Shown: positions 6 through 28,474 of the stretch, in pieces
Layout of the letters: each line of letters starts with the position of its first letter
Position numbering within the stretch: position 1 is the first letter of the stretch
Source of the DNA: a virus
DNA: 34,434 bases
Strand: one strand, 5' to 3'
IMG/VR virus record: IMGVR_UViG_3300046820_000826
Span: 1 to 34,434 of that record
The notes under the pieces: model-generated
The model's input: only the letters and a program-made list of their open reading frames with translations
Database searches by the model: none
What the model was told of the DNA's origin: nothing
Program-made: the position numbers and the translations under genes

Positions 6-49
6 CATAGGGTTAAGATTAAATTTGTATCACTTTTGTCAGACTTAGC
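6..49 (-). repeat. 44-bp inverted repeat, copy 1: shared leader / candidate attI-like site of array B
   Basis: The reverse complement of 6-49 is identical to 13530-13573, and similarity continues for about 15 more bases into the cassette ends. Read on the minus strand it ends exactly at the ATG of the small gene at the right end of the window (34132-34284), so it is that gene's 5' leader. On its other side it meets the outermost cassette end GTTACCTGC of array B. A TAnnTTTG box (TAAATTTG, 20-27) points on the plus strand into the array, against the cassette ORFs. With an upstream TTG at the joined right end (34275-34277) and an 18-base spacer it could be a promoter, but this is weak. Confidence 0.8.
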
Positions 50-73
50 AATTAGTTACCTGCAAGTGCTACT

Positions 74-10720: not shown

Positions 10721-11743
10721 CTAAACAATTTTACCATTAATTATTCTAATATTATTAACGTGATACGTTCCGTCTTTATTTACTTTCACATGTGTAAAGC
10801 CATGATTCCAATTATTGAAAGGCATATACTCAGGCTCTAATCCACAAAGACAACCAGTTGACCACGTTGTCGTAACTTCGCCTCCTAAGTTCTTTTCGGA
10901 ATGCTCACTGCTACGGTGGTGATGCCCAATAATGCAAGATTGTTTAGCTTTTAGATATAATCCACGTGCGGGATTTACGGGAGGTGCGAAGCCTCCAAAC
11001 CATTCGTGTCCGTGCATAATAGCAAGTTTACCCGCATAAGCTATCTGTTTACTTCCAACTAACGTACATCCAAACTCCCTTAGTCTTAATATTTGTTCCA
11101 ATTTAAAATCGTCAATCCCTAATAATTCGGGTGCTTTAATTTTTAAGAAATTTTCCCAACGGTCGCAATGGTTGCCTATCTTAAAATAAATAGGGCATTT
11201 AAACGTATCTTGAAGCATTTTCAAAAACTGTCTAGTTAACTCTAACTCCCCCGCTAAATTTCTTAATCTAGGGTCTTTAATAAACCTACTACCGTGATAC
11301 ATATCTATTGTATCGCCGTTTAAATAAACCGCATTCACATTATTATCTAAACCGTATTGTAATGCCAATTCTAAGGCCTTATTATCTTGGTAAGGTATAT
11401 GTATATCCGATAAAACTAATATGTTATTTTGCCCTTTTGGTAGCTTAAACGGTTTAGTAGCCTCGTAGTCGCTTTCAGGAAGTTCAAATGATTTAGTAAT
11501 CATTTCCCTTTTTTCTTCTTTTGTTCGCTCCCCTACCTTTTCCATAGGCATCTTATTGCTTTTTTCGCCTCTGTAATATCTTATCGATGCCCGACAAGCA
11601 TCTAAGCTATTAAAACTAAGTGGATTTTCTTTGTAAAGTATTCGAGCTAATGCCATAGTTGAAGCCTTTGGCATACTTTCAATTAGCTTAACTGCTAACT
11701 CTTTTTTATAGGTTGCCCCATTTTGATTTCCTTTTACACTCAT
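10721..11743 (-). CDS. calcineurin-like metallophosphoesterase
   Basis: The 340-residue protein has the metallophosphoesterase motifs in order: SDIHIP (DxH) near residue 112, NGDTID near 142, GNHCDR near 190, MHGHEW near 244 and IGHHH near 273, enough to bind two metal ions. Residues 1-95 form a charged N-terminal domain (YKKELAVKLIESMPKASTMA). Phage enzymes of this type may process DNA ends, nucleotides or 2',3'-cyclic phosphates; the substrate cannot be told here. It is transcribed leftward from 11765-11772, divergent from array A. Confidence 0.85.
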   Translation of the reverse strand: MSVKGNQNGATYKKELAVKLIESMPKASTMALARILYKENPLSFNSLDACRASIRYYRGEKSNKMPMEKVGERTKEEKREMITKSFELPESDYEATKPFKLPKGQNNILVLSDIHIPYQDNKALELALQYGLDNNVNAVYLNGDTIDMYHGSRFIKDPRLRNLAGELELTRQFLKMLQDTFKCPIYFKIGNHCDRWENFLKIKAPELLGIDDFKLEQILRLREFGCTLVGSKQIAYAGKLAIMHGHEWFGGFAPPVNPARGLYLKAKQSCIIGHHHRSSEHSEKNLGGEVTTTWSTGCLCGLEPEYMPFNNWNHGFTHVKVNKDGTYHVNNIRIINGKIV

Positions 11744-11764
11744 AATCTATTTTTTAAAGTTTCT

Positions 11765-11828
11765 CAAAATTAGTAATTTTCTTTAATACTTAGACGTTTA
11801 GCGTATTATTTAGAATGAATATAAATAG
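11765..11828 (-). promoter_or_regulatory. divergent promoter region between phosphoesterase and array A, with operator copy
   Basis: TAATTTTG (11765-11772, minus strand) is a -7 box 21 bases upstream of the phosphoesterase ATG. A degenerate copy of the palindrome (left half TTATTTAGAAT exact, right half altered) lies at 11806-11828, between this gene and the plus-strand array A, so it could govern both directions. No confident plus-strand -7 box was found in the T-rich stretch 11829-11866. Confidence 0.5.
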
Positions 11829-11866
11829 TAAGTATTATTTTTTTGTATTACTTTTTTTTGTAGTAT

Positions 11867-11994
11867 TGCATAACGGATAGGTATTGGCGAAGTTGCCGAA
11901 CACAAAACTTCAATAGAATTACAAATGTTTAAATTAAAGATATAATGTCAAACGAAGCACAAAACGGCTTTTTTGCCAAACCGATGTTAGGCGA
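11867..11994 (+). repeat. attC-like site upstream of cassette 1
   Basis: The outer box is TGCATAAC (11867-11874) and the inner box GTTAGGCGA (11986-11994). The arms TTGGCGAAGTTGCCG (11884-11898) and CGGCTTTTTTGCCAA (11965-11979) pair at 11 of 15 positions, with two of the four mismatches being G-T wobbles on the plus strand. The start codon of the cassette 1 gene lies in the loop. Confidence 0.65.
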
Positions 11995-12289
11995 TGTTTT
12001 TATTCGTGTTTTCTGTGGAGTTTCCATTGAAGATAAGTGTAGGCATCAATTACATCCGTTAAACGAAGTAATACAAGCACAGAAATCATTGTCGTTAAAC
12101 AAATCAATGGACTTTTATTCAAACAGTCCTGACTTTGTTTCTGCTATAAAATATTTGTGTCAAGAAAAAGGTGTTAAATATGAATTTTTCTTGGATGGAG
12201 AAAGTACAGGCAATGATATAGAACCCATATTCGAGAATTTTAATAAGTCTTTTGATTTGTTGAATGAGTTGTGTCCAAATATCGCCTAA
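11945..12289 (+). CDS. hypothetical cassette protein (114 aa, cassette 1)
   Basis: The protein has 114 residues and no recognised family. The first 14 residues (MSNEAQNGFFAKPM) are encoded by the upstream attC-like hairpin, and the frame crosses the R' box as MLGDV. The cassette-specific part is acidic and helical, with EKGVKYEFFLDGESTGNDIE and a C-terminal helix FNKSFDLLNELC. The TAA stop lies inside the closing R'' box TCGCCTAAC. Because the next gene is a DNA methyltransferase it could have a defence-related role, but nothing in the sequence shows this. Confidence 0.6.
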   Translation: MSNEAQNGFFAKPMLGDVFIRVFCGVSIEDKCRHQLHPLNEVIQAQKSLSLNKSMDFYSNSPDFVSAIKYLCQEKGVKYEFFLDGESTGNDIEPIFENFNKSFDLLNELCPNIA

Positions 12290-12417
12290 CGTTTACAGAT
12301 TGGCGATGTTGGGGATTAGAAAGTACAAATGTTCAAATTATTACAAATGATATTAGAAAGCACAGAAGTTCAAATTAAGCACGAAAGCCCCAATATTGCC
12401 AATGTGGTGTTAGGTGC
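12282..12417 (+). repeat. attC-like site between cassettes 1 and 2
   Basis: This is the clearest attC in the window. R'' is GCCTAAC (12284-12290) and R' is GTTAGGT (12409-12415), both exact matches to RYYYAAC / GTTRRRY. The arms ATTGGCGATGTTGGGG (12299-12314) and CCCCAATATTGCCAAT (12388-12403) pair at 14 of 16 positions. Both mismatches are G-T wobbles on the plus strand. The loop of about 73 bases contains candidate start codons of the methyltransferase gene. Confidence 0.82.
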
Positions 12418-13498
12418 AGTTCCTGTTCACAAATTTCCCTACAATTGGAATTTAAAAGATACAAACTTTACAAAAGATAAAGGCAAAGTGTTTAGTTGTT
12501 TTGCTTGTGGTGGTGGTTCAACAATGGGATATAAATTGGCTGGATTTGACGTAATAGGACACAATGATATTGATAAAAAAATGATTGAAGTTTACAAAGA
12601 AAATCATAAACCAAAATATTCATTTTTAGAAAGTATTACAACTTTTGCTAAAAGAAAAGATTTGCCAAAAGAACTTTATGAACTTGATATTTTAGATGGT
12701 TCGCCACCTTGTAGCAGTTTTTCAATGGCTGGAAATAGAGAAAAAGACTGGGGCAAAGAAAAGGTATTTAGAGAAGGACAAGCTGAACAAGTTTTAGATA
12801 CGTTATTCTTTGATTTTATTGATTTAGCAAAAGAATTACAACCGAAAGTAGTTGTAGCTGAAAACGTAAAAGGTTTGCTATTAGGCGAAGCGAAAGAATA
12901 CGTTATTAAAATTTATAAGGAGTTTGATAGAGCTGGATATTATGTGCAACATTTTTTACTTGATGCTTCAAAAATGGGAGTGCCACAACGTAGAGAAAGA
13001 GTTTTCTTTATTGCACTAAGAAAAGATATAGCACAACCATTTTTATATTATGCAGATATGTTTACTGAATTGCCAAAAATTGATATGCAATTTAACGAAC
13101 CAACAATTACATTAAATGACATCAAAGACAATAGTGCTAATGATGAAAAATGCGAAATGACTGATGTAAAAAGAAACATCTGGAACAATAGAATTAATGG
13201 AGATAGTGATTTTAGCTGTACATTAGGGAGAATTGAAAACAGACCAAATTCAATGTTTAACAATAACTATTTATATGGAAATAAACCATTAAATACTATT
13301 ACATCAAAAAAGAATGATGTGCTTTTTGATGAACCAAGACATTGTAATTTTAACGAAAACACATCCGGGCAAACATATCCTAAAGATTATAACTTTTTAA
13401 ATATGCCTTATTTATATTTATTAGGAATGAGTGTGCCACCTGTAATGACTGCACAAATATCAACTAAAATATATGAACAATGGTTGTCGAAGTTGTAG
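12329..13498 (+). CDS. cytosine-C5 DNA methyltransferase (cassette 2)
   Basis: This is a full-length enzyme (389 residues) with motif I KVFSCFACGGGSTMGYKLAG near 53-72, motif IV GSPPCSSFSMAG near 130 (catalytic Cys), motif VI AENVKGLL near 175, motif VIII VPQRRERVFFIA near 215, a target-recognition region, and a C-terminal motif X-like LLGMSVPPVMT. The first 30 or so residues come from the preceding attC-like hairpin (boundary read as VVLGAVP). An ATG at 12350 in the same loop would shorten it by 7. It probably protects phage DNA from host restriction. Confidence 0.9.
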   Translation: MFKLLQMILESTEVQIKHESPNIANVVLGAVPVHKFPYNWNLKDTNFTKDKGKVFSCFACGGGSTMGYKLAGFDVIGHNDIDKKMIEVYKENHKPKYSFLESITTFAKRKDLPKELYELDILDGSPPCSSFSMAGNREKDWGKEKVFREGQAEQVLDTLFFDFIDLAKELQPKVVVAENVKGLLLGEAKEYVIKIYKEFDRAGYYVQHFLLDASKMGVPQRRERVFFIALRKDIAQPFLYYADMFTELPKIDMQFNEPTITLNDIKDNSANDEKCEMTDVKRNIWNNRINGDSDFSCTLGRIENRPNSMFNNNYLYGNKPLNTITSKKNDVLFDEPRHCNFNENTSGQTYPKDYNFLNMPYLYLLGMSVPPVMTAQISTKIYEQWLSKL

Positions 13499-13529
13499 AT
13501 GCGTCTTTTGGAATTGCACCTAACTAATC

Positions 13530-13573
13530 GCTAAGTCTGACAAAAGTGATACAAATTTAATCTTAACCCTATG
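13530..13573 (+). repeat. 44-bp inverted repeat, copy 2: shared leader / candidate attI-like site of array A
   Basis: This is identical to the reverse complement of 6-49. It runs from six bases after the last cassette box (GCACCTAAC) to the ATG of the ribbon-helix-helix gene at 13571, so it serves as that gene's leader. Bases 13525-13529 are also similar to the array B side. The minus strand carries TAAATTTG (13552-13559) pointing back into the array. The same sequence at two unrelated loci, each time between a cassette array and a start codon, points to a common insertion site. Confidence 0.8.
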
Positions 13574-13753
13574 ATAGTCTATAATAAACAAATTACGCTT
13601 AAGATAAGCGAAACGCAAAAAAACACCTTAGATAAATTAGCAAAGCGAAAGGTAAAAGTATCTAAATTCATTCGGGATGCTATAAGCGAAAAAATACAAC
13701 GAGAGGCAAAGGATTTAGTCGTTAAGCCTAAAAAAGTTGATGTTCCGTTTTAA
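13571..13753 (+). CDS. ribbon-helix-helix DNA-binding protein (60 aa)
   Basis: The 60-residue protein has an Arc/CopG-type ribbon-helix-helix: the strand NKQITLKIS (residues 5-13), helix ETQKNTLDKLAKRK, turn, and helix VSKFIRDAISEKIQREAK, then a basic tail ending VDVPF. Such proteins bind palindromic operators as dimers or tetramers. It is a strong candidate for the factor that recognises the repeated 23-bp palindrome. It is one of few plus-strand genes, follows array A through the 44-bp leader, and is followed by a terminator. Confidence 0.75.
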   Translation: MIVYNKQITLKISETQKNTLDKLAKRKVKVSKFIRDAISEKIQREAKDLVVKPKKVDVPF

Positions 13754-13896: not shown

Positions 13897-14361
13897 TTAT
13901 TTGCTAAAATACAAAGCACTTTCTTTTATACGTCGTTTAGTTAATCCATTTAATTCTTTACCCCCTTGTTTATTCCACATTAAGAAAGCCTTAGCGATGT
14001 TTGCGTCTTTTGGGTTATTGTTTGCCAATCGCAATACAGTTGATGTCTTAAAAGCGTTAATTCCTATGTTATAGGCAAGGCTTACAAGTGCGTTAAATTG
14101 ATTTTGGTTTACCTCTTTTAAAATTAAGCTATTTACTTTTAAGGCGAAAGCATCCGCTAAAACTGTAAGTAATTCCAAAGCCCGCTCTTTTGTAATAGGC
14201 AAATCAGTTATTTGTACTTTTTTACCGTTATCGTAGAAAGTAGAACCGTATCCAATCGTAACTATTCCTTTTTGCTTTTCCAATTCCGTAGCATAGTAAG
14301 GGGATAATCTTAAACCCTCGAATGATGCTATCAATTCTATTCCGTTTCTGTCTAGTTTCAT
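13897..14361 (-). CDS. phage lysozyme / endolysin (GH24)
   Basis: The 154-residue enzyme matches T4-type lysozyme, a muramidase that cuts peptidoglycan. The catalytic Glu is E15 in IASFEGLRLSPYY, and TIGYGST (T35) supplies the conserved Thr. Downstream ALVSLAYNIGINAFKTSTVL and the FLMWNKQGG...LNGLTKRR signature are typical. At the position of the catalytic Asp (nine after E15) it has Ala24, and a few extra residues (TELEKQKG) follow. No signal peptide is seen, so it needs a holin. It overlaps the preceding gene by 4 bases. Confidence 0.88.
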   Translation of the reverse strand: MKLDRNGIELIASFEGLRLSPYYATELEKQKGIVTIGYGSTFYDNGKKVQITDLPITKERALELLTVLADAFALKVNSLILKEVNQNQFNALVSLAYNIGINAFKTSTVLRLANNNPKDANIAKAFLMWNKQGGKELNGLTKRRIKESALYFSK

Positions 14362-14654
14362 TTCGTAAACACTTTAACCGTTATACTTATAATAGCTAAT
14401 ATTAACCCTCCTATGATAAATTTAGCTTGCTTAAGGTAAACATTGACTTCTTGTTTAAACGTTCTTAATTCGTCTAATTCGTCTTTAATATCTTTTACTT
14501 CTTGTACCATACCGCCTTTATTAAAATCATTACCTACCAACACATTTTTAATATCGATTAATATCGCTCGGTCTTCAATTCGATATTTTTTATCTAAATC
14601 CATGTGATGCCGTATGCGCTCAACTTCTGCGCTTAGTAGTTTCAAATCGTCCAT
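14358..14654 (-). CDS. membrane-anchored coiled-coil protein, holin-associated (XhlA-like)
   Basis: This 98-residue protein has a long charged, heptad-like region (ERIRHHMDLDKK, then VQEVKDIKDELDELRTFKQE) followed by a single C-terminal membrane helix (FIIGGLILAIISITVKVF). This is the plan of XhlA-type proteins that assist holins. It lies between the small holin-like gene and lysozyme and overlaps both by 1-4 bases, so it is a lysis-cassette member by context. Confidence 0.65.
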   Translation of the reverse strand: MDDLKLLSAEVERIRHHMDLDKKYRIEDRAILIDIKNVLVGNDFNKGGMVQEVKDIKDELDELRTFKQEVNVYLKQAKFIIGGLILAIISITVKVFTK

Positions 14655-14872
14655 TATTCTTTATTGTTCTTTAATTTATCTACAATGTTAATTCCAAAAA
14701 GTCCGCATATTAACCCTGCATCAACTGTTAAGACCATTACTAAATTGCTAGCATCAGCAAACCTATGCGAATATAAATAAGCACAAGTAACGGCAAAGGC
14801 AGTTAGCTTTTTACCGCTTGCCCCGTCTGTATTATTATCTAAGCTAGATTTTATAAAATTAAAAAAACTCAT
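14654..14872 (-). CDS. holin-like small membrane protein (72 aa)
   Basis: This 72-residue protein has a basic-polar N-terminus, a first hydrophobic segment (KLTAFAVTCAYLYSHRF) and a second (LVMVLTVDAGLICGLFGINIV) before a charged C-terminal tail (KLKNNKE). Two membrane segments and the charged tail are typical of class II holins. It lies immediately before the coiled-coil membrane protein and lysozyme. The sequence alone does not prove hole-forming activity. Confidence 0.6.
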   Translation of the reverse strand: MSFFNFIKSSLDNNTDGASGKKLTAFAVTCAYLYSHRFADASNLVMVLTVDAGLICGLFGINIVDKLKNNKE

Positions 14873-17223
14873 TACGATATATTACTTGTTGCAGTTAATG
14901 TATTACTTCCTATTTCTATAAATTCACAAAAACTATTAGCCTCTATTTGTGCCGTTGTAACCCCTATTGAAGTGGCGATAGCAGGTTGTATAGTTCCCGC
15001 AGTAGTTACAGTAATAGTACCGCTTAACATCCCCTTAGCCACTGTGTTTGTTGTCGCAGTCGTTACTACTGTTGCGCCCGTTGTTTGTATAGATTGAATA
15101 TTGGCTGCCGTTATGGTTGCAAGTGCATTTTTAGTGGCATTCATTTTATAACTAATCGACGTAATTACTGCCGTTCCTAAAAAACCAAAAGAAATAGTAC
15201 CACTAGTACCACTTAACCCCGTAACATCAAACTCAATTCTAAATCGATAGGTCTTATTAGCACTCGCGTTAAAAGAACCACCTCCACCGCTACCGACGTT
15301 AAACATTTTTTGTAAAGAGGTCGAGTTTGATAGTACATAGGGAGTTAATAAACGCATATAATCGACTGTACCCAATCCTACAGCAGTTCTATCAAGTGTT
15401 TGCCAGCTCTTATCACCTCTGTAATATTGGGATGTAGTACCCGCAGTTATTGTTGGCTCAACTGAAACGTTGCCACTACCTAGCAAAGAAGTTGAATTAA
15501 CTGTTTTAATGTTTGTGCCGCTTACTAAAGTATCTTGTTTAGTTGCTAGTCCACTAGTTAGTGAAGAAGTCGTAGCGTATGAACTTAAAGCCGTTGTTAT
15601 TTGTGTGGCTACTGCGCTAGTAGTGGTGTAAATAGAATCAAAATAAGTCTTTAAAGTAGCCTTAATATTCGCCCATGTTATTTTTTTAGCTAGTGAAACA
15701 CTATTGTCTACAATAATCATTCTGTCAGCATCTACGGGGGTAGTCATAGCCGTAAGACCGTCAACAAATGTGTGCGTATTGCTTGCCGTTAATACGTCTT
15801 GTTTGCTACTCGCTAAACCACTATATTGGCTATTTGTAGCGTTATCACCGCTATTCGTTCCGCTTGTATTGGCTAATTTGGTTATTTCACTAGCATTAAT
15901 TAAACGCTCCCCCGTAACCTTATCTACTTTAGCGTCTAAATCAGTAACGTTTGCCTTTGCTAAACTATTGTAATATGATTCTTTTTGTGTTATAAGAGGT
16001 TGTGAAACGGGGGTTAATTCAATCTTAGAAATCATCCCCGTACCGTTTACCGTATCCCAATTAGTCATATAAATGGAACCGTCTGTAGGTTGCAATAACT
16101 CGTTTGGAAACCCATTACCCCTATACGTGAAAGTGTTACTTGTATATGGTTGTTCAGACTGTAATGCTAGTAACAATGATTGTAAATCCCATACTTGTAT
16201 AAAGCCTTGATTACTCATACTGTATAGCTTAGTGCAATCTGTGCTTTTAAATAACCCTACGGTTGGCAAAATATCAAAAGGACGAATAGTATTATCATCT
16301 ACATTAATAATTACCGCACCTAATCCCGTTCCTACTCCTTTATTTTCACCTCCTAATATTACGGCATTATAACCTAAATTGTTATCATCTACGGGTAAAA
16401 ATACATTATCATCCGTAATAACTTCCATATAATTACGAACATCATTAACCGTATATGTTAAATTAGTATTGTTGACTGTTGCTAAATAACCTCTACTGCT
16501 TGAAGCATAAAAAACACCGTCAATAGAATTAATATCACACCAATGACCGCCTCCGTTACCCGTCCAATTATTAGTTAAAATAGTATTCCAATCGCTTATC
16601 CTAACCTTGAAAAATTTACAGTTGTTTATGTTTTCAACTCCATAGATATAAGTACCGTCCGTACAAATTGCAGGACTATCTTGTAAGTTTACACCCGTAA
16701 TAACGTTATAATTGATATCTGTAAAATCAAGTGGGTCAGCATCCCAAATATAAGAAACACCATTATAATATCGAGTTCCGTAAATTCTACTCTCATCTGA
16801 TTTTTTAACAATGCTTTCTAATCCTAAAGAGCAAGGCACTGTAATAACCTCCTCCAAAGTCGTACCGCTATATCTTAGTAATTTACTATTAGCACCTTGA
16901 CGAGTGCCTATAATCATTTTACTGCCTATCGTTATGGTTCCGTGCGCGTATGCAAATTGATTACTTGGCGTTGCCTCTAAAATAGTAACTACATTCTCAT
17001 TTGAAGCCTCAACGTCGTTTGCCGTTATAAACCCGCTATCATTTGTAAGGTCGCTAGTTAAGGTCGGGATATCTAAAGTAACATCCCCCGTTTGTCCGTT
17101 TACGCTACTTACTGCACCGCTTGACTGCACAACGTTAATTTCAATAGTCGTTACATCGTTAACCGTTTCTACAGTTATATTTTCCTCAATAGGATAAGTA
17201 TTTATTGTAATTGTTTCGTTCAT
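14872..17223 (-). CDS. tail fibre / receptor-binding protein (783 aa)
   Basis: The N-terminal strand-rich segment leads to SSVNGQTGDVTL and LTSDLTNDSGFIT, repeats typical of the shafts of phage tail fibres. Residues 85-410 have repeated strand and WD-like patterns (YIYGVENINN, HWCDINSIDGVFYASS) suggestive of a beta-propeller-like domain. Further shaft repeats follow (ATNSQYSGLASSKQDVLT, TTSSLTSGLATKQDTL). YYRGDKSWQTLD near 615 is a common fibre signature before a C-terminal Ser/Thr/Gly-rich beta domain. It is the last structural gene and most likely contacts the host surface. Confidence 0.8.
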   Translation of the reverse strand: MNETITINTYPIEENITVETVNDVTTIEINVVQSSGAVSSVNGQTGDVTLDIPTLTSDLTNDSGFITANDVEASNENVVTILEATPSNQFAYAHGTITIGSKMIIGTRQGANSKLLRYSGTTLEEVITVPCSLGLESIVKKSDESRIYGTRYYNGVSYIWDADPLDFTDINYNVITGVNLQDSPAICTDGTYIYGVENINNCKFFKVRISDWNTILTNNWTGNGGGHWCDINSIDGVFYASSSRGYLATVNNTNLTYTVNDVRNYMEVITDDNVFLPVDDNNLGYNAVILGGENKGVGTGLGAVIINVDDNTIRPFDILPTVGLFKSTDCTKLYSMSNQGFIQVWDLQSLLLALQSEQPYTSNTFTYRGNGFPNELLQPTDGSIYMTNWDTVNGTGMISKIELTPVSQPLITQKESYYNSLAKANVTDLDAKVDKVTGERLINASEITKLANTSGTNSGDNATNSQYSGLASSKQDVLTASNTHTFVDGLTAMTTPVDADRMIIVDNSVSLAKKITWANIKATLKTYFDSIYTTTSAVATQITTALSSYATTSSLTSGLATKQDTLVSGTNIKTVNSTSLLGSGNVSVEPTITAGTTSQYYRGDKSWQTLDRTAVGLGTVDYMRLLTPYVLSNSTSLQKMFNVGSGGGGSFNASANKTYRFRIEFDVTGLSGTSGTISFGFLGTAVITSISYKMNATKNALATITAANIQSIQTTGATVVTTATTNTVAKGMLSGTITVTTAGTIQPAIATSIGVTTAQIEANSFCEFIEIGSNTLTATSNIS

Positions 17224-17224
17224 A

Positions 17225-17566
17225 TTAATTTGTAACTGTATCGATTATTGTAAAGTTTCCGCCTAACCATGTCTTAATAACCCCGTCCATATTAATCTCA
17301 ATATCATAAATATAGTCGAAAGCTAAAATATCGATTATTTGCTCATTAATTTGAAAGTCTAAAATAGTAGAAGTATTGTTTAATATAGTAATGCCACCTG
17401 TTACACTGCTAAATGTAAGCCTACTTTGGTCGCCATACATTTTTTTAAGTTGGATTTTTACCGTTGCTCCCGTAAAGTCAAATATACTAGAGTTAGATAG
17501 GGTAAATGTAAAGCGGTGCGCCTTAAAGGTATTCCCTTTTAAATGTGTAAAGTCTCGTGTTCCCAT
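17225..17566 (-). CDS. baseplate / fibre-connecting protein (BppU N-domain-like)
   Basis: This 113-residue beta protein contains the pattern FTFTLSNSSIFDFTGATVKIQLKK followed by alternating strands to IKTWLGGNFTI. That pattern resembles the N-terminal baseplate-binding domains of BppU-type upper baseplate proteins. It lies between the collar-like proteins and the large fibre, and its start overlaps the previous stop by one base. It may link the fibre to the tail tip. Confidence in the exact family is moderate. Confidence 0.55.
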   Translation of the reverse strand: MGTRDFTHLKGNTFKAHRFTFTLSNSSIFDFTGATVKIQLKKMYGDQSRLTFSSVTGGITILNNTSTILDFQINEQIIDILAFDYIYDIEINMDGVIKTWLGGNFTIIDTVTN

Positions 17567-18258
17567 TATGTAAGTCTTATTTTAACCACGCCCGCAGTAT
17601 GGTAATATTGTCCTATTGCTATTCCCCCAGCACTTGCCGTAGTATCATTAGTAAAGTTGTCAGCAATATCTACTATGCAAAAAATACCGTCTTTATTAGG
17701 GAGCATTTGGCCTCTGTCTATTGTTAATAAACTAGCGTCTATCGTTGCATTTTTTCCTTCATCGCTAGTTGAGTTTATAGTTATAAACCCAAGAGGACTA
17801 ATTCCCACTCCTTTAGTGTTATCATTAGTTATTGATATGTCATTTGTAGTAGTATTACCTACGTCTGTAACTTGTTGTAAGTTAGGCGAAAAACCAACTA
17901 TTGGTATTCCTACCGCCAACTCCCAATGGTCTGCCAATGACATAACTGCATTAAGTTGCTCGGTACACACTACATCAGGATAACCGCCTACATTTAAATA
18001 AGTACCTGCCCCACATAAAAAGAAACTAGGGTTTTCGGGGACATCGGGTAGTTGTTGACCATCTGTAACGCTTAATGCTAAATAACCAACACCGCTCCCC
18101 GCACCTATTGCAGTCGATATTAAATCAATTAATGACTGTACCGTATCCTGCTTTAAATCTGTGCCTACTTGATGAGGCAATAGACTTGTAGCCGTAATAG
18201 GGTCAAAAGCTAATTGGTCTACTCGTATAGCCGTTATATCATCGGGGTTTATTGACAT
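17566..18258 (-). CDS. tail tip / fibre protein with shared N-terminal module (230 aa)
   Basis: The first 50 residues (INPDDITAIRVDQL, GTDLKQDTVQSLID) are similar to the start of the next gene upstream (18263-18853), so the two are paralogous at the N-terminus and differ after it. The rest is Gly/Ser/Thr-rich beta sequence with LGFITINSTSDEGKN and an AGGIAIGQYYHTAGVVKIRL end. It is likely a virion tail-tip component. The body has no recognised enzyme motif. Confidence 0.65.
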   Translation of the reverse strand: MSINPDDITAIRVDQLAFDPITATSLLPHQVGTDLKQDTVQSLIDLISTAIGAGSGVGYLALSVTDGQQLPDVPENPSFFLCGAGTYLNVGGYPDVVCTEQLNAVMSLADHWELAVGIPIVGFSPNLQQVTDVGNTTTNDISITNDNTKGVGISPLGFITINSTSDEGKNATIDASLLTIDRGQMLPNKDGIFCIVDIADNFTNDTTASAGGIAIGQYYHTAGVVKIRLT

Positions 18259-18262
18259 ATTG

Positions 18263-18853
18263 TTATAATTTCATACATTTTAATAATACTATGAACGGGG
18301 GCATATTGCGCCCGATTGCACTAACTCCTACCGTAGAAGTATAGTAAGTAGTTCCACCTGCTGAGCCGTCACCACTTGTATTTTGAGTAACCGCCCCACT
18401 AGTTTTAATTGGAAATCCCGTAGCTATTGCAGGAAACTCGCCCTCTGCCGTAATATCGTCAGTATAAACGTGACTGTGTGAAATTACCGCTCCATCTTTA
18501 TAACCTCCAAATCCACCTATACTATTATAGTTTGTACCGTATCCAACGCTTACAAGTCCATCCATCGGAGGCGTGCCGTTTTGACCGTTGCAAATAGCTA
18601 AACCTTCACATATACCAATTCCTAATCCCGTAGAATCAAAATTGTCATCTATATACGTAGGCGTTACCCATAAATCAATAATCTGAAATTGTCGAGTACC
18701 CACATTAATATTCATATAGTCTATTAAATCCTGCCCCGTAATTTTATATAAATCCGTTCCGTTTTCAATAGCAATTTTTGAAGTTTCGCTAATTGCTCCC
18801 GTTGGTAATTCCCCTACTCGTACTGCCGTTGTTAATTCTGGGTTTATTGCCAT
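18263..18853 (-). CDS. tail collar / short fibre-like protein (196 aa)
   Basis: The N-terminal module (INPELTTAVRVGEL, NGTDLYKITGQDLIDYM) is shared with the next gene. The C-terminal half has the collar-type pattern CNGQNGTPPMDGLVSVGYG, then HSHVYTDD and the ending NMPPFIVLLKCMKL, typical of the tail collar domain that forms fibre tips. It probably trimerises on the baseplate. The start overlaps the stop of the second tail-tube-like gene by one base. Confidence 0.7.
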   Translation of the reverse strand: MAINPELTTAVRVGELPTGAISETSKIAIENGTDLYKITGQDLIDYMNINVGTRQFQIIDLWVTPTYIDDNFDSTGLGIGICEGLAICNGQNGTPPMDGLVSVGYGTNYNSIGGFGGYKDGAVISHSHVYTDDITAEGEFPAIATGFPIKTSGAVTQNTSGDGSAGGTTYYTSTVGVSAIGRNMPPFIVLLKCMKL

Positions 18854-19365
18854 TATTCTTTTGTTTTAATTATAAAGTTTGCATCTTCATTCGTTACTAT
18901 CAAATGGTTCGGGTTTCCATCGCTTAAAACAAAGTCTCCTAGTCCTTTTGTTAGTGGTAATCCATACCCCGTAATACTTCCCGAAAAACTCAATAAGTCC
19001 TCCGCTTGTGAAGCCTCTGATATTTCAGTTATATACCCTTTACCATAGTCTACCGTAGGAAATAAAGAGCCTTGTATTTTCCAATCTAATAGCATTTTTG
19101 AACGTTTCAATAGCTTAAGTCTGTCGTAACTAGCCACTCCAAAATTACCCCCTATTAGGGTTGTATTTAATTGCACCCCTTCAAAACCTATGCTATAATT
19201 TTGGTTTGTAGGTCTCGAAGTCGCCCAGCCATTATTATCCCTTGTTGTAGTTGATAGCATTTCAGCACTTTCAGAAATTGAATTGCCACTTAAACATCCT
19301 ACGGGCAACCAACTACCTAAGTATTTTATATATAATATTCGGTCTGCTCCGCTATACGTTTCCAT
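18853..19365 (-). CDS. second tail-tube-like protein (170 aa), paralogue of the major tail protein
   Basis: The middle aligns with the major tail protein at 24657-25100: EGVQLNTTLIGGNFGVASYD here against EGEFIDTTTIGGDTAKASHD there, both followed by LxLLxxxKxL. It has the beta-rich layout of TP901-1/lambda gpV-type tube proteins. It lies after the tape measure, in the baseplate region, so it may form a distal tail ring or adaptor. It has its own operator-linked promoter (19370-19405), whose -7 box ends 4 bases before the ATG. Confidence 0.7.
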   Translation of the reverse strand: METYSGADRILYIKYLGSWLPVGCLSGNSISESAEMLSTTTRDNNGWATSRPTNQNYSIGFEGVQLNTTLIGGNFGVASYDRLKLLKRSKMLLDWKIQGSLFPTVDYGKGYITEISEASQAEDLLSFSGSITGYGLPLTKGLGDFVLSDGNPNHLIVTNEDANFIIKTKE

Positions 19366-19369
19366 AATC

Positions 19370-19405
19370 CAAAGATATAAAATTATTTATAATCATTCTA
19401 AATAA
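19370..19405 (-). promoter_or_regulatory. late promoter with palindromic operator (baseplate genes)
   Basis: TATCTTTG (19370-19377, minus) is followed by only 4 bases before the ATG, so the transcript would be leaderless or nearly so. The palindrome at 19383-19405 (TTATTTATAAT, C, ATTCTAAATAA) lies 5 bases upstream of the box, where the -33 element would be. It also abuts the stop codon of the upstream gene. Confidence 0.7.
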
Positions 19406-21664
19406 TTACGATTTAATAGTAGGCTTAATTGTATCGTTTCCATAATCAGGCGAAATTACGTATTCAATATCGCCTAAATCGCTTGTATAAAACTGTAATA
19501 GCTTAACTTGTGATATATTAGTTTTATAATCGTAGTCGTAGTGTATAGGCATAAACTTGCCACTAATACCATCGATTGTAATTACTGACATATACTTAAT
19601 TTCGCCAAAAATACTACCTGAGAAGCGTCTTATAGGTGCTGACTGTATTCTCAAATCGTCCATAGCACTTATACCTAACAACTCAATATTTTCAGCCTTA
19701 TTTTTACGTGTCCATAATTCGGTAAGCGTTTCTAAATCATCTGTGTAAATAGAGCCTATTAACATAGCATCTCCATCTCCATTATATACCACTTGATTTT
19801 CTTTAGTAATTGAGCTTGGTGGATTTTTTCGGCTTACAGTATGAAACTCGCCAACTATACCGCTTTCTTTAAATGTGTTATCTAATAATTGAACATAGCT
19901 TATTTTAGATAATCCTTTTTTTGTAAAATCATAGAACGGATCACCCACTGCTCTTACATAAATACCTGGGGAGCATATCACAACCGTAACGCTACAATTA
20001 TTGTTTAAAGGAGGTAATAAACGTTCGTGAGTAATGAAGTATTCTTTTGTACTTACATTACCGCATTTAACTACTATGTGTGCATTCGTATCTGTTACCC
20101 ACTCATTGTTATTATTCAAATAATAACCATCACTTGTTTTTATTTGTATGTTAAAATAGTGTATCGTTCTAAGTGTAGAAGCCTTAAATCTAAATGTTAA
20201 TACTTGCCCTTGTGAGGCTGAGAAAGAAGTTGATGTTAAGACCTCTGTTAAAAATGGTACGCCTTGCCTAACTGCCAACTCTAAACCCGTTAAATTTAAA
20301 GGATTGTTTATAATTTCTAATCCCGTATATGGTGCTTCGGGATAAGTAATAGTATCGGTAACTATAATAGGCAAATCAGGGTTAGTAGTCCAATCAGTAT
20401 AAACCATAGCATCACTATGCGAAAGGTTTGTATTTTTCATATACCCATCTAAAAAACCATACTTATAATTTAGCCTATACGCACTTATTGCGCCCACAAC
20501 TTCTATTTGTTGGTCGCTACCACAATGATGCGGATAAAAGTTATTAATCTGACTACCTAAATTTGCATTTAAATTATAAAGTTGTGTTGTGTTTGTTGTT
20601 TGGTTTATAAATGTAGCTACCCCGCTATCTAAGTCATTAGGTCGGTATATAAACCACTTCCCATCTTGTTGTGTAACTACTGCTGACATTAGATTAAGTA
20701 TCGATGTTAATACTTCGTTACAGTCCATTATAACCTCATCTTGTTGTTGCTTTACAAACCTTTCAGCATTTATAAAAACATCCTTTACAATATTAGTTCC
20801 AGAATAACCTACATACTCTAAATCTATATTTGTTAATATATCCATAGATAGTCTAGTTCGGTCTAAACATCCCTTAATCACATCATAGAAAGACATTTTA
20901 CCCGTAAATCGTAAACCGTTACTTTGCACGAATGAAAGGTCTTTCAATAACCCTAATCCATCTACTGTTTCGACATTTACGTACCACGTGTCCGCAATAA
21001 AACTTTGCGTACACCCGTCAGGTTTAATATAGCCTTTGTAGACTAAATTAGTATTTTTTAGTAATTCAACTTTAAATGTAAATTCGTCCTCAAGCAAAAA
21101 CTCATCATAAGTTAATGATTGATTTGCTTCAAGTTGTAAATCTATTCCCGTTCCCCTAATTGGCGTTAAGATAGTTTCAACACTTGATTTTTTTAGTGTA
21201 AACGTTCCAAATATTTCGGTAGCTGACCCTAAATAGTTTTTCTTATAAATGTTAAGCGTGTAATCATCGAAAATAATATAGTACTTTAAATTTTCGTTAG
21301 CTGGTTCTATATCAACTGTGGTAATATCGATAAAGTCATTTATAACGGGGTCTATTGAAATAATACAGTCTGCTTGTACCGTAACTTCAATAGTTTGCCC
21401 TACTATATTGTAATCTATGATATAATTTTGATAATTCTCTTGTAAAAAAGATAGCGTATTTTGAATAGTTAAATCTAAAGTACTGCCTAGATTTACTTGG
21501 TAGTCCTCCGTAATTGTTGCGCCTGCATTTATCCAATCTATACGGCAAAAGTTTTTACCGTTACTATACGTTATGTCAATAGAATTAACTTGTATGCTAT
21601 AAGTGAACCCCGTCGACGTTGTAGAGGGTTGGTCGTTAAATTGTATGATTATTTTCTTTGCCAT
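19406..21664 (-). CDS. large tail / baseplate protein (752 aa)
   Basis: This is a mainly beta-strand protein located directly after the tape measure gene, where Dit and Tal-type proteins are encoded. The N-terminal 110 residues (KKIIIQFNDQPSTTSTGFTY) form a small beta domain. A Dit-like block follows (YDEFLLEDEFTFKVELLKNT, VYKGYIKPDGC), then a long central domain and ISKISYVQLLD. It looks like the baseplate hub protein of Bacteroidetes siphophages. Its start overlaps the tape measure stop by one base. No peptidase motif is obvious. Confidence 0.7.
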   Translation of the reverse strand: MAKKIIIQFNDQPSTTSTGFTYSIQVNSIDITYSNGKNFCRIDWINAGATITEDYQVNLGSTLDLTIQNTLSFLQENYQNYIIDYNIVGQTIEVTVQADCIISIDPVINDFIDITTVDIEPANENLKYYIIFDDYTLNIYKKNYLGSATEIFGTFTLKKSSVETILTPIRGTGIDLQLEANQSLTYDEFLLEDEFTFKVELLKNTNLVYKGYIKPDGCTQSFIADTWYVNVETVDGLGLLKDLSFVQSNGLRFTGKMSFYDVIKGCLDRTRLSMDILTNIDLEYVGYSGTNIVKDVFINAERFVKQQQDEVIMDCNEVLTSILNLMSAVVTQQDGKWFIYRPNDLDSGVATFINQTTNTTQLYNLNANLGSQINNFYPHHCGSDQQIEVVGAISAYRLNYKYGFLDGYMKNTNLSHSDAMVYTDWTTNPDLPIIVTDTITYPEAPYTGLEIINNPLNLTGLELAVRQGVPFLTEVLTSTSFSASQGQVLTFRFKASTLRTIHYFNIQIKTSDGYYLNNNNEWVTDTNAHIVVKCGNVSTKEYFITHERLLPPLNNNCSVTVVICSPGIYVRAVGDPFYDFTKKGLSKISYVQLLDNTFKESGIVGEFHTVSRKNPPSSITKENQVVYNGDGDAMLIGSIYTDDLETLTELWTRKNKAENIELLGISAMDDLRIQSAPIRRFSGSIFGEIKYMSVITIDGISGKFMPIHYDYDYKTNISQVKLLQFYTSDLGDIEYVISPDYGNDTIKPTIKS

Positions 21665-23472
21665 TATCCTAATCCTAATTGACCGCCTAAACGTTTGTTA
21701 CTATTAATCGTATTACTCAACACTCCTATTAATTTTGTTCCTGCAATTTCAAAAACTACTGTACCGCCACCGCTATTTGAAGCAAAGCCACTACTCGTAA
21801 AACTGCTATTATTTGCGCCTGAACCTGACGAACTAGAAGCACCGCCTCCTCCTCCGATACCTCCGCCTATTGAACTAGACTTAGCACTGAAGAAAGACCC
21901 TAAAGCAATTAATGCAACACCCGCACCGATAGCAACGGCAGGATTAAGCGATTTTAAAGCCGTTTTAATAGCTAATAACCCTACACCTACTTGTATAGCC
22001 ATTTTACCCATATCTGTTAATATATTCCCTAACGAACTAAGTAAAGAAGCACCTACTGCGCTTAATATATCCGACCCCGTAGCTAAAGCGTTTCCTATTG
22101 CCTCGCCTAATCCTATAAAAGTGTTGGCTATCGAATCTGTAATTATTGCACCTGCCTTACTATTGAAATCTTGTAAAGCTAAAAGCATTTTTGCAGTTTC
22201 TTCACTTACTGTATTTGAAGCAGGAGGAAAAGAAGTGTGCATAATTCCCGGCAACTCTTTTATTTTATTTCCAAATTCATCTACTTTACCCGTTAAGGCT
22301 TCAAGTTTACTAACGTCTGCTAATCCTGCTGGCAATAATGAACTTTGTACCGCAGTTACTTGCGGGGTTACATAAGTTTTAGTCGCTTTTACTTCTTTTT
22401 CTTTTAACTTAATACTTTCCGCAGTTTTTTCGTTTAGCATTCCTGCTAATTTATCTTGTTGCGTTTGTACTTCTAAAATTTGTACGTTTAAATCTTTTAC
22501 TCTCGATGTCGCACTTGCTAATTGCCCTTCATTACTTAAACCCGTCGCTCCCATTGTGCCACCAGTAACAGTAACCGCTCCTTTTACATTAGCCTGCGCC
22601 TCTTTAAGTTTAAGTATTGCTTTTTCCTTTTGTATCTGTAAATCTAATTTTTGAGAGGCTAATTTTCCAATTTCATCAGCTAAAGCCGTAGCCTCTGCAC
22701 GTGCTATAATTGCCCTTGTTAATTCATTTGTAGCACCCGTTAAATTACCATTTAAAATATATTCTTTTGACAAATTTCCAAAGTAAGCAGGGTAAGTACT
22801 TTGTAATTCTTGAACTGCCAATAATCTATCTTTTCGTGATTTAGTATCGTCCTGAGCAACAGAAACCAAAGCCTTCATAGTTGATATTTCAGAAGCACTA
22901 TTTTTAGCGGAATCCGTCGCAATTTTATCGATAGTCTGTTTATAGCTATCAAAACTTCCCGTTAACTTATCTATAACATCCCCAACGCTTAAACCGCTTT
23001 GCGCCATATAAGTCAACCCCGTAGTAAGCAAAGAAACGCCTAGTAATATACCGCCACTCCCCATAATAGACTGCCCTAACGCCTTTAAAGCTCCACCCGT
23101 AGACCCCGTAGCGTTTTTAAGATAGCCAAAACTTTCAACCGTTGCCGTAATATTGTTACCTATACCAATAATTCCAAATGGTGCATCCTGCGCTATACGG
23201 CTAAACTGCATTAAAGCATTTCCTCCATTGGCAACTTTTGGAGCCATACCGCTAAACGTTTGCCCCGTATCTTTTACAGTAGATTTTAATTGATTAAGGT
23301 TATTTTTAGCATCTTTAATTTGAGAGTTTATTTCGGTAGTATCTAAACCAACTTTTAAACGGTCTAGTTTTACCTTAGATAACTCTTTAATATCATACTC
23401 AATCTCTTTGATTTTTTTATCAAAGTCCGTTTTGTCCGCTCCTATCTGTACCTCTAATTTTCCGCCACTCAT
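21664..23472 (-). CDS. tape measure protein (602 aa)
   Basis: The N-terminal coiled-coil domain (MSGGKLEVQIGADKTDFDKK, then EIEYDIKELSKVKLDRLKVG) is characteristic of tape measure proteins. Hydrophobic segments follow (GGILLGVSLLTTGLTYMAQS near 145, and MAIQVGVGLLAIKTAL...AIGAGVALIALGSFF near 500-540). Next come a Gly/Ser-rich stretch (GGGIGGGGGASSSSGSG) and a C-terminal strand VVFEIAGTKL. At roughly 1.5 angstrom per residue it implies a tail of about 90 nm. It follows the frameshifted chaperone genes, as in lambda-like phages. Confidence 0.88.
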   Translation of the reverse strand: MSGGKLEVQIGADKTDFDKKIKEIEYDIKELSKVKLDRLKVGLDTTEINSQIKDAKNNLNQLKSTVKDTGQTFSGMAPKVANGGNALMQFSRIAQDAPFGIIGIGNNITATVESFGYLKNATGSTGGALKALGQSIMGSGGILLGVSLLTTGLTYMAQSGLSVGDVIDKLTGSFDSYKQTIDKIATDSAKNSASEISTMKALVSVAQDDTKSRKDRLLAVQELQSTYPAYFGNLSKEYILNGNLTGATNELTRAIIARAEATALADEIGKLASQKLDLQIQKEKAILKLKEAQANVKGAVTVTGGTMGATGLSNEGQLASATSRVKDLNVQILEVQTQQDKLAGMLNEKTAESIKLKEKEVKATKTYVTPQVTAVQSSLLPAGLADVSKLEALTGKVDEFGNKIKELPGIMHTSFPPASNTVSEETAKMLLALQDFNSKAGAIITDSIANTFIGLGEAIGNALATGSDILSAVGASLLSSLGNILTDMGKMAIQVGVGLLAIKTALKSLNPAVAIGAGVALIALGSFFSAKSSSIGGGIGGGGGASSSSGSGANNSSFTSSGFASNSGGGTVVFEIAGTKLIGVLSNTINSNKRLGGQLGLG

Positions 23473-23473
23473 A

Positions 23474-23755
23474 CTATTGTTTTTTTACAGTTTCCTGCCA
23501 TTTCTTATACTCTCCTATAAATATTTGTTTCATTTCGTCGGATATGCCTCCTTTAACTTCTTTATCCCCTTCTAACTTAAGAAACTGCTCTTTTCGTTTA
23601 ACCATCTTTTTAGGGTCTTGATGTGGTGCAATATAGCTAACCCACATTAACTCCCTTAGCTTAATCCAATCGTATTTATCTTTCCTTTTATAAGCAAAAA
23701 GTCGAATTTGAAACTCCGCCCACGTCATTTCGTAAACTGATTCCAAATTCGACAT
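23474..23755 (-). CDS. tail assembly chaperone, downstream frame (gpT-like part)
   Basis: An internal ATG could give 93 residues (MSNLESVYEMTWAEFQIRLF...), with a Trp/Tyr-rich helix (WIKLRELMWVSYIAPHQDP). The frame is open upstream of this ATG through NWSEDVISFALGELR, back to the A10 run in the preceding gene. It is therefore more likely the C-terminal part of a frameshift product. It lies next to the tape measure gene, 2 bases apart. Confidence 0.75.
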   Translation of the reverse strand: MSNLESVYEMTWAEFQIRLFAYKRKDKYDWIKLRELMWVSYIAPHQDPKKMVKRKEQFLKLEGDKEVKGGISDEMKQIFIGEYKKWQETVKKQ

Positions 23756-24153
23756 TCTTAATTCGCCTAAAGCAAAAGAAATTACATCCTCACTCCAATT
23801 TATTTTTTCACTATTTTTTTTTTACTACTTTTATCCTCAGGGACATCCTTAGTCAAAGACTTTACAAAAGCATCCTGCCACTGCAAAAACAATTCCCCTT
23901 CAAAACCTCCTGCCTCTTCTATCCATTCGGTAACGTCGAAAGCATCGAATAAAGGACGTTCATTTTTACGAGTAAATCCATACGCACAAGAATAGTACAT
24001 TATTAACGGATTCCATTTATAAGGGTTTTGTACGGTCTTTTCGCCTATATCTTGAATAGATATATTTTCACTTTCTAAAAGGTTTCCTAAGAAGCCTAAA
24101 CCAAAGTAAAAATCACGATATTGACCGCCTATTTGAAGGTTAATTTTTTTCAT
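23474..24153 (-). CDS. tail assembly chaperone fusion made by -1 frameshift (gpGT-like)
   Basis: The upstream frame reads GAT AAA AGT AGT AAA AAA AAA ATA to a stop at 23800. A -1 slip on the run of ten A (23814-23823) moves ribosomes into the downstream frame, which is open from there: K N S E K I N W S E D V I S F A L G E L R, then the 93-residue part. The fusion would be about 226 residues. A homopolymer slip before the tape measure gene is the conserved G/GT strategy of lambda and many siphophages. The ratio of products is not visible from sequence. Confidence 0.75.
23800..24153 (-). CDS. tail assembly chaperone (gpG-like)
   Basis: This 117-residue protein begins MKKINLQIGGQYRDFYFGLG and has helices EWIEEAGGFEGELFLQWQDAF. 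It ends in a basic KSSKKKIVKK encoded by A-runs that form the slippery site. Size and position (tail tube gene, chaperones, tape measure) fit tail assembly chaperone G, which coats the tape measure during tube growth. Confidence 0.75.
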   Translation of the reverse strand: MKKINLQIGGQYRDFYFGLGFLGNLLESENISIQDIGEKTVQNPYKWNPLIMYYSCAYGFTRKNERPLFDAFDVTEWIEEAGGFEGELFLQWQDAFVKSLTKDVPEDKSSKKKIVKK

Positions 24154-24156
24154 AGA

Positions 24157-24597
24157 TTAATTGTAAATTCTTATTTCTATAAAAGCATCTGTAATTATTC
24201 CATCCGTTGCTGTTGTTGCATTGTAAGTTTCAATAGTAAAAAATTGTGCGCCAATAGAATATACATACATTCTACTATTTGAAAATGAACCGTTTGTATT
24301 TATTGAATGAATTATAGCAGTTTGGTCAGTTGTAAAAACATTTGACGAACCCGTAATCATATAATTCCCTGCCGAATTTCTACTAAAAGAAAATGTAACT
24401 CCTGTTGTGTTGTTTAATACTTTAGCAATAGGACTATCTGTTCCTGATTGAGATATTAAAGCCGTATATGAATTGTAATTAATGAAATCTACAACCGCTT
24501 TTAAATTTGTTCCAACGTCTGTTGGTGTTATGGCGTTAGCCGACGTTTCGTTTGTAATTTGGCTATCAATTTGCGCCTTTAATTCTGTATTTGTCAT
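24157..24597 (-). CDS. hypothetical virion-module protein (146 aa)
   Basis: This 146-residue protein has an N-terminal helix with the fibre-like phrase LKAQIDSQITNETSANAITPTDVGTNLK, then a beta-rich body with FSFSRNSAGNYMITGSSNVF. The leader resembles the attachment segments of small phage fibre or decoration proteins. It lies between the tail tube and chaperone genes, so it may decorate the tail tube. Function is not established. Confidence 0.5.
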   Translation of the reverse strand: MTNTELKAQIDSQITNETSANAITPTDVGTNLKAVVDFINYNSYTALISQSGTDSPIAKVLNNTTGVTFSFSRNSAGNYMITGSSNVFTTDQTAIIHSINTNGSFSNSRMYVYSIGAQFFTIETYNATTATDGIITDAFIEIRIYN

Positions 24598-24656
24598 TTT
24601 ATTGATTTTTAAGGTTAAGCAAATTCACTGCCAAAAACACTATCGAAAACGCTAGT

Positions 24657-25100
24657 TCAATCCATTGGGTCTGTCAACAAGATAGCACCATCAACATCGA
24701 TTGTTACGGTAAAAGTAGATACTTCATCGCCTGAACCTTGCGTAAGTTGTAAGTCTGTGAAATATGCAGTTCCGAAATATTTTGTAGATGATGAATTTGT
24801 TATATCAGTATCATATTTGAAGTTTACAAGTGTTTTAGCTTGTTGCAACAAAAATAATTTATCGTGTGAAGCCTTTGCAGTATCCCCTCCGATAGTTGTA
24901 GTGTCTATGAACTCGCCTTCTGCACTAATTGAATTGTTTAAAACACCAGGCGTTTTCTTAACAACCCCAGGGAAACATTTTGTTCTGCTTTCAATCATAG
25001 AAAGCTGAGAACTTAACCCACTTGAAGTTAAGCAGGCAATAGGTTTATAAGTTGAAGTATCCCATATATATACGATACCGTTTTCTCCTTTTATACTCAT
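24657..25100 (-). CDS. major tail (tube) protein
   Basis: This 147-residue beta-rich protein has the TP901-1-type tube pattern: KPIACLTSSGLSSQLSMIES near 18-38, FPGVVKKTPG, then EGEFIDTTTIGGDTAKASHD and TFTVTIDVDGAILL at the end. Its place after the connector genes and before the chaperones and tape measure supports tail-tube function. A promoter-operator pair lies upstream (25134-25170), consistent with strong late expression. A paralogue is encoded at 18853-19365. Confidence 0.82.
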   Translation of the reverse strand: MSIKGENGIVYIWDTSTYKPIACLTSSGLSSQLSMIESRTKCFPGVVKKTPGVLNNSISAEGEFIDTTTIGGDTAKASHDKLFLLQQAKTLVNFKYDTDITNSSSTKYFGTAYFTDLQLTQGSGDEVSTFTVTIDVDGAILLTDPMD

Positions 25101-25133
25101 ATCTTATTATTTTTATTAATTACTAATTTATTT

Positions 25134-25170
25134 CAAAGATATAAAATTTATTTAGATTAATTCTAAATAA
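25134..25170 (-). promoter_or_regulatory. late promoter with palindromic operator (tail tube)
   Basis: TATCTTTG (25134-25141, minus) lies 33 bases upstream of the tail tube ATG. The palindrome copy (left half TTATTTAGATT, right half the complement of TTATTTAGAAT) lies at 25148-25170, 6 bases from the box. Confidence 0.7.
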
Positions 25171-25179
25171 TATTATTTT

Positions 25180-25581
25180 TTATTGTAAGGTTAAAATAAC
25201 TCGAATAAAAGACCTAAATACAGTTTGTGTAGTTGTTGAAGTTTCTATACCATTAGGAAACTCATAGCGGGTATTAACAACTGTATAGCCGTCTATTTCT
25301 AAGTTATTAATCAAGGCTAAAATATCGTTTTTCATATCGTCAACCGCAACCCTACTACCTACGTTTCCTGCACCATTATAAATAGTAACTAAGTCTAAAA
25401 GTGTATAACTCTCCCATCGATAATTACATTTATTTGCTTTATCTATGTTCTCGTTTTGAGTTGAAATAATAACGTATTGCGTTTTATTTTGGTTACCAGT
25501 CACATTAGTGTCAAAGCAATCGTAATCGTTTTTAATAGCATCGTATATAGCTTTACGGACGTGTTTATTTGGTAGTACCAT
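25180..25581 (-). CDS. tail completion / terminator protein (DUF3168, SPP1 gp17-like)
   Basis: The 133-residue protein begins MVLPNKHVRKAIYDAIKNDY and has YVIISTQNENIDKANKC, LLDLVTIYN and a final RSFIRVILTLQ strand, in the layout of DUF3168-type tail completion proteins that cap the tail and join it to the head. It overlaps the HK97 gp10-like gene by 17 bases and directly precedes the tail tube promoter. Confidence 0.7.
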   Translation of the reverse strand: MVLPNKHVRKAIYDAIKNDYDCFDTNVTGNQNKTQYVIISTQNENIDKANKCNYRWESYTLLDLVTIYNGAGNVGSRVAVDDMKNDILALINNLEIDGYTVVNTRYEFPNGIETSTTTQTVFRSFIRVILTLQ

Positions 25582-28473: not shown

Positions 28474-28474
28474 T

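Follow-up and report, generated by a model that had tools for sequence, protein, structure and literature searches.

Integron cassettes can be inserted at sites other than attI (attG), where they lie outside a complete integron, and bacteria store defence genes in integron cassettes. The sedentary chromosomal integrons of Bacteroidota possess an intI gene, and most of their genes read away from attI with the attC behind the gene. In phages, 17 clusters of attC sites without intI (CALINs) have been described, including one in the Polaribacter phage P12002L, and five of six attCs of virulent phages were recombined by IntI1 (Qi et al. 2023, PMC9892861). In the part of that paper that is available, these CALINs carry methyltransferases, include one from a Bacteroidota phage (P12002L, the attCs of which point in divergent directions), and are reported without a docking site, an RHH-like gene, recurrence within a lineage, turnover or systematic inversion; neither Flavobacterium nor phage 11b is mentioned there. 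In the methyltransferase region of P12002L, our strict detector calls one cassette only. PMC10013915 is unrelated as far as its accessible portion goes.

The arrays that we describe here resemble those CALINs in their attC clusters without intI and their methyltransferase cargo, and resemble the Bacteroidota chromosomal integrons in their attC boxes, their asymmetry and bottom-strand bias, and the presence of a simple site at one end and an attC at the other. In contrast with the host integrons, they have no intI, their genes point towards the docking site and the attC stands in front of the gene; unlike attG insertions, they use one recurring conserved site, which is reused with different cassettes. 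We interpret the array that we call array A as an integrase-less integron array in which inverted cassettes were inserted at an attI-like docking site, most likely by an IntI acting in trans, the recombinase itself being unidentified; we hold this reading to be probable, with real room for doubt. We found no published attC sites in Flavobacterium phage genomes, and the landing site, its link with an RHH-like gene, the inversion and the array turnover appear new insofar as they were not found in the literature searched, which left out most subscription papers and all of bioRxiv.

Two cassette arrays in one phage genome

The window, that is, the whole stretch of DNA analysed, comprises the 34,434 bases of an IMG/VR virus record. 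The first 158 bases recur at its end with two mismatches, so that it probably represents a circular phage genome, about 34.3 kb in length. It encodes a terminase, a portal, a head protease and a major head protein, and the isolate nearest to it in large terminase sequence (73% identity) is Flavobacterium phage 11b. A search of Rfam gave no match. Of the seven cassettes called across the whole window, array A holds two and array B five (Table 1).

Positions 11868–13524 are an integron-type cassette array. The original prediction had placed matched cassette ends in 11867–13524, with an exact GCCTAAC/GTTAGGT site and stem between the cassettes, and had seen there a plus-strand island in a minus-strand genome that carries a methyltransferase gene, accompanied by a separate array elsewhere in the same phage, all of which held. 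Both end pairs match at 9/9 positions (GTTAGGCGA at 11986 with TCGCCTAAC ending at 12290, and GTTAGGTGC at 12409 with GCACCTAAC ending at 13524), the two cassettes are chained via one common attC with exact boxes and one of the two best stems in the arrays of the window, array A lies on the plus strand of a genome encoded mostly on the minus strand, its second gene codes for a C5 cytosine DNA methyltransferase, and both arrays were found. That prediction did not list the attC at 11868–11992, the common docking site, the RHH-like gene, the inverted arrangement of genes and attCs or the start codons within attCs.

Table 1. Positions of the cassettes, attC sites, docking sites and adjoining genes in the window
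Feature	Position	Strand	Remarks
attC of cassette A1	11868–11992		GCATAAC ... GTTAGGC; holds the A1 start codon and leader; plus (bottom) strand folds better than minus
Cassette A1	11986–12290	+	9/9 matched ends
A1 gene	11945–12289	+	114 aa; start inside own attC; Pfam DUF4840 below cut-off
attC of cassette A2	12284–12415		GCCTAAC 12284–12290; GTTAGGT 12409–12415
Cassette A2	12409–13524	+	9/9 matched ends
A2 gene, C5 cytosine DNA methyltransferase	12329 (or 12347)–13498	+	PF00145, 1e-46; start inside own attC
Docking (attI-like) site A	13521–13572	−	..CAGACTTAGCGATTAG/TTA; right end of array A
Small RHH-like gene	13571–13753	+	60 aa; phrog_25647, phrog_876
Docking site B	7–58	+	1 mismatch to A over 52 bp
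Docking site B, second contig-end copy	34284–34334	+	2 mismatches to the start copy
50-aa gene adjoining docking site B	34132–34284	−	ORF
Cassette B1	55–476	−	9/9 ends; gene 135–371
Cassette B2	556–670	−	gene 569–730, start inside own attC
Cassette B3	788–993	−	gene 799–969 on minus; plus-strand ORF of similar length present
Cassette B4	1111–1839	−	DNA methyltransferase-like gene 1126–1761; GTG start; partial match to the methyltransferase family; phrog_363, 2e-13
Cassette B5	1881–2124	−	gene 1882–2184, start inside own attC

A chance origin of array A was rejected, since two chained cassettes never appeared in 2000 order-2 Markov shuffles of 11700–13700, of which 27 gave at least one cassette. 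Across the whole window, seven one-sided cassettes were observed versus 0–4 in 40 shuffles, none of which (0/40) gave a cassette with a strong stem at each side. Matched R boxes occur at both ends of 7/7 called cassettes, 9/9 each, a match that the detector itself requires. The bottom strand is the more stable one in six of the seven window attCs (for the A2 attC, −16.2 kcal/mol on the plus strand versus −10.6 on the minus strand), and several of them fold no better than shuffles. Array A, with two attCs, and array B, with five, both satisfy the definition of a CALIN (at least two attCs within a few kb and no integrase). We also observed a TTTGTATTACTTTT-type sequence on both sides of array A, at 11840–11867 and 13521–13572, in inverted orientation.

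The docking site and the gene beside it

Arrays A and B abut, on one side only, the same sequence of about 52 bp, ending in TTAGC(A or G)ATTAG/TT, where the slash marks the junction. At docking site A we infer that the cut falls between 13524 and 13523 on the minus strand. Docking site B is seen again near the end of the window because the contig ends overlap by 158 bp; at the two mismatched overlap positions the start copy agrees with site A and the end copy does not, a discrepancy that could be an assembly artefact at the repeat. No attC was found at the docking junctions and the opposite end of each array is an attC, so the geometry is that of an integron, attI–cassette–attC. The RHH-like gene adjoins docking site A, the site overlapping its start region, and is divergent from the docking-to-array direction, in the position that intI takes in an integron. 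Since the copy at array B precedes a different short gene, which has no relatives in 80 TerL sibling loci, a duplication of the docking site seems to have occurred. The RHH-like assignment of the 60-aa protein is weak: it matches DUF6290 below the cut-off and the phrog_876 repressor at 4e-4, and its structure model consists of two helices with no significant PDB match (best E 3.8). Its profile had no match at E≤1e-6 in 296 Flavobacteriales, a search without a positive control.

Relatives were collected by scanning with the metallophosphoesterase encoded next to the array, which gave 29 loci, and with the terminase, which gave 80 more. Among 112 sequences, likely arrays occur in phage 11b, L009, L017, L018, L020, L023, L025, L082, L099 and L101, in addition to the window; L017, one of the 29 metallophosphoesterase loci, has an array with other cassettes at the window's own place. 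Single AT-rich cassette calls in L013, L050, L070 and L098 were dismissed as chance. The lysozyme gene is followed after 11–44 nt by the metallophosphoesterase gene in 10 of 19 sibling loci; the window holds the RHH-like gene, the docking site and the array between the two. Among the siblings compared, none was found with the window's own docking site empty. A scan of genome contigs with an attC core common to L017 and L020 returned nothing.

An alignment of seven RHH-like proteins retrieved 217 relatives in viral contigs, 80 of which were analysed. Near the RHH gene of 60 of these 80 loci a cassette array starts, and its start is a docking point at which AG or TG precedes TT in all 60 except L206, a call discarded for its low-complexity GTTT. 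Removal of L206 and of five duplicates left the 54 arrays and 136 cassettes analysed below. The 20 RHH loci without an array comprise four with too little upstream sequence, six with fewer than 700 nt and a remainder of 10, among them L243, which does carry an array with inexact ends. Four loci (L238, L240, L255 and L263) show an RHH gene and a docking-like sequence with no array detected and are candidate empty sites; L121, at 829–1007, shows the docking motif without any cassette being detected, along with an RHH gene that seems to be broken, and may be a decayed platform.

The docking site is simple and conserved, with arrays beginning at G/TT, in the absence of any IntI-binding data. Its logo (54 arrays) has A at −9 and G at −1 in 54/54, TTT at −21 to −19 in 53–54/54 and, per base, GTAATAC at −29 to −23 in 47–53/54, this last motif being nearly palindromic and about 20 nt upstream of the cut. 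GTAWTAC is not enriched across the window (10 seen, 7.5 expected). The window's docking sequence, searched as 27 letters with one wobble, matched no viral contig; a broader motif found nine viral loci and the stricter GTTRRRY form two. By eye, the phage docking sequence is unlike the host attIs seen.

Inverted genes and array turnover in related phages

The genes of these phages are reversed relative to their own attCs in 133 of the 136 cassettes. The same holds for 71/76 cassettes of another phage set oriented from attC asymmetry alone, whereas Bacteroidota chromosomal integrons oriented in this way have forward genes in 55/62 (Fisher p about 1e-24, the cassettes not being independent). Beside true integron integrases, where the same detector calls cassettes (5 of 20 host regions gave none), 51 of 58 cassettes from 12 regions have genes pointing away from attI, and a single start codon there falls inside an attC. 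The phage arrays lack this canonical order, in which the attC lies downstream of a gene that reads away from attI. The attCs themselves are alike: C precedes GTT in 52/55 host attCs (from the same 12 regions) and in 133/136 of the phage docking arrays, A follows AAC in 135/136 of the latter, and folding favours the bottom strand over the top in 111/136 phage and 36/55 host attCs. From this common bottom-strand bias we infer that the gene has been reversed and the attC has not. Several choices bound these counts. The 55/62 figure rests on 15 of the 20 host regions; the 76-cassette set includes only records with a detected array, was restricted to hand-set regions in 12 of 18 records and lost two of 78 cassettes that had no ORF; boxes beginning GTTT or GTTC were excluded from the host and 76-cassette counts; the 76- and 136-cassette sets overlap (L082/L210, L115/L228 and L116/L232); and cassettes of related phages are not independent.

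These orientations bear on the possibility that the arrays are fragments of host chromosomal integrons captured by accident. Such capture would account for attC boxes and an asymmetry that match those of host integrons, and phage CALINs with methyltransferases have been published, one of them in a Polaribacter phage (PMC9892861, in its available part). It conflicts with the opposite gene direction (133/136 reversed versus 55/62 forward) and with a docking site that keeps one position next to a single gene family in 60 of the 80 loci analysed out of 217. Gene orientation led us to reject capture of host cassettes as the whole story, and accidental capture in general seems to us quite improbable.

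In at least 56 of the 136 phage cassettes the start codon lies within the attC, and the coding sequence crosses the R box, as compared with one start within an attC in 62 host cassettes; ORFs were called from ATG only, so other starts are undercounted. Among 51 readable genes, the frame of the R box is a GTT codon in 25, xxG-TTR in 23 and the third frame in three, this last being mostly closed by a stop in the usual box. The typical Bacteroidota promoter motif, TANNTTTG, is absent from the coding strand of all 136 attCs (0/136), so a promoter inside the attC is unproven. On the same strand, AAGTACAAA recurs in 19/136 and TTAAATTAA in 23/136, possibly as a phage promoter or ribosome-binding region.

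The original prediction had proposed to look for cassette breakpoints at G/TT in sibling phages, and in relatives these are exact in two pairs. Over 5,227 bases up to the docking G/TT, with a few shared letters beyond, L242 and L243 show 99.73% identity; they then hold entirely different two-cassette arrays; they rejoin at the same right flank straight after the last attC (558-base match, 94% identity), some of their four box pairs carrying one mismatch. L114 and L118 have 250 identical bases on the left, different cassettes and the same right flank, where the match spans only 23 bases, up to the end of the L114 contig. A third pair, L023 and L025, breaks at G/TT on the left, the only side compared. 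Homologous exchange of whole arrays cannot be excluded, because the arrays of all donors start at the docking site.

Movement of a single cassette is supported, on comparative grounds only, by a methyltransferase cassette that Flavobacterium phage tooticki and the MAG contig SSF59 share from AAC box to AAC box. It is near-identical through attC and leader and has an unaligned stretch in mid-gene; the weaker similarity before the first AAC box stems from neighbouring methyltransferase genes. This cassette matters for another explanation, namely that the boxes and hairpins are phage regulatory modules for termination or translation control, swapped by homologous recombination at conserved flanks without any present site-specific recombination. 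Conserved sequences on both sides of the swapped arrays, start codons in the hairpin region and the lack of an integrase in cis (0/28 and 0/50 sibling records) are all compatible with regulatory modules. Yet the ends of each cassette match each other and mostly differ from those of its neighbours, the single cassette common to two contigs has its edges at AAC boxes, and the attC asymmetry equals that of IntI-linked hosts, all of which makes us regard regulatory modules as unlikely.

Recombinase, cargo and meaning

No tyrosine recombinase (PF00589) was found in the window record, which does not meet the definition of a complete integron, with intI next to attI, nor was any found in the two sets of sibling records mentioned above. 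PF00589 is present in six of 50 phages with the RHH platform; two of these six recombinases, L267 and L268, were inspected and are Xer-like or phage-type by eye. The integron integrase profile TIGR02249 at E≤1e-60 matched 0/395 genomes of Flavobacteriales, the order to which the known hosts of 11b and tooticki belong, and 107/395 genomes across Bacteroidota at the same threshold, 105 of them over the curated cut-off. None of eight genomes with methyltransferase matches had a TIGR02249 hit over the cut-off, and their best scores, L137 and L138, were ruled out as ordinary Xer-like recombinases by eye. IMG/VR contains 239 IntI relatives, of which 80 were examined: the best is 52% identical to a Bacteroidota IntI, none of the 80 has the docking motif and only one has a GC below 0.42. 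Cellulophaga phage phi18:3 (L123) has cassette-like genes, including a C5 methyltransferase, beside an ordinary phage tyrosine integrase.

The absence of IntI from the 395 sampled genomes of the known hosts' order leaves room for some other phage or host recombinase, for instance a Xer-like one, to move the cassettes, perhaps with the RHH-like protein, whose gene occupies the intI position, as an accessory. Against such a recombinase, the searched records show no recombinase gene linked to the platform and the attC features are those of IntI-linked arrays; we accord it only a slight probability. If, as we prefer, IntI acts in trans, cassettes would enter at the docking G/TT, upstream of the RHH-like gene, as the breakpoints in relatives show. 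We infer that an IntI from the host or a co-infecting element would recombine the docking site with the folded bottom-strand attC of a circular cassette. As observed, the attC precedes the gene and often supplies its start codon and a short leader; a cassette with its own translation start could, by inference, do without a promoter at the docking site, no promoter having been shown inside an attC. Insertion would have brought a C5 DNA methyltransferase and an unknown gene with array A, and array B sits in a copy of the same docking site. More speculatively, and without binding data, the docking region with its GTAATAC motif may be a binding target of the RHH-like protein, which might autoregulate or control access to the site.

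Most of the 110 cassette proteins scanned (four from the window and 106 of the 136 from RHH arrays) have no Pfam match. The matches are led by methyltransferases (N6_N4_Mtase 7, C5 3, D12 2, Dam 1), with Mom in 2, and PHROGs agrees on a methyltransferase-led cargo. Many phage cassettes are likely shields against bacterial defences, and the A2 methyltransferase, judging from its family, probably shields phage DNA from host restriction. Flavobacterium phage tooticki6-1 has four methyltransferase genes in or beside called cassettes near its RHH-like gene, one of them an A2 homologue with 72% protein identity and a different attC-encoded N-terminus. SSF59, from a Chitinophagales MAG, has 16 called cassettes, many of them methyltransferases by eye or similarity, and also encodes a phage-type ribonucleotide reductase and DNA polymerase; since the USDE contig encodes a terminase and a tape measure, at least USDE is a phage contig binned in a MAG. 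The phage-like MAG contig with 16 called cassettes (G079:C166, about 14334–31634; L126 and L148–L149), in which many cassettes encode DNA methyltransferases and some are duplicated, looks like a stockpile of anti-restriction genes.

It may be that Bacteroidota phages maintain a dedicated integrase-free platform, in which a conserved, attI-like landing site linked to an RHH regulator receives phage-only, inverted, self-starting anti-restriction cassettes, exchanged among phages by means of a recombinase acting in trans, a proposal in which we place about as much trust as doubt. Which recombinase acts is a puzzle, since Flavobacterium, the host genus of two array-bearing isolates, belongs to an order in whose sampled genomes no integron integrase was found. 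Laboratory tests are feasible, Flavobacterium phages 11b and tooticki being isolates, and near-identical phages with different cassette sets and a testable landing site provide a natural system. If the proposal is true, integrons would be part of a two-sided arms race, in which phages run a stripped-down version for their counter-defence genes.
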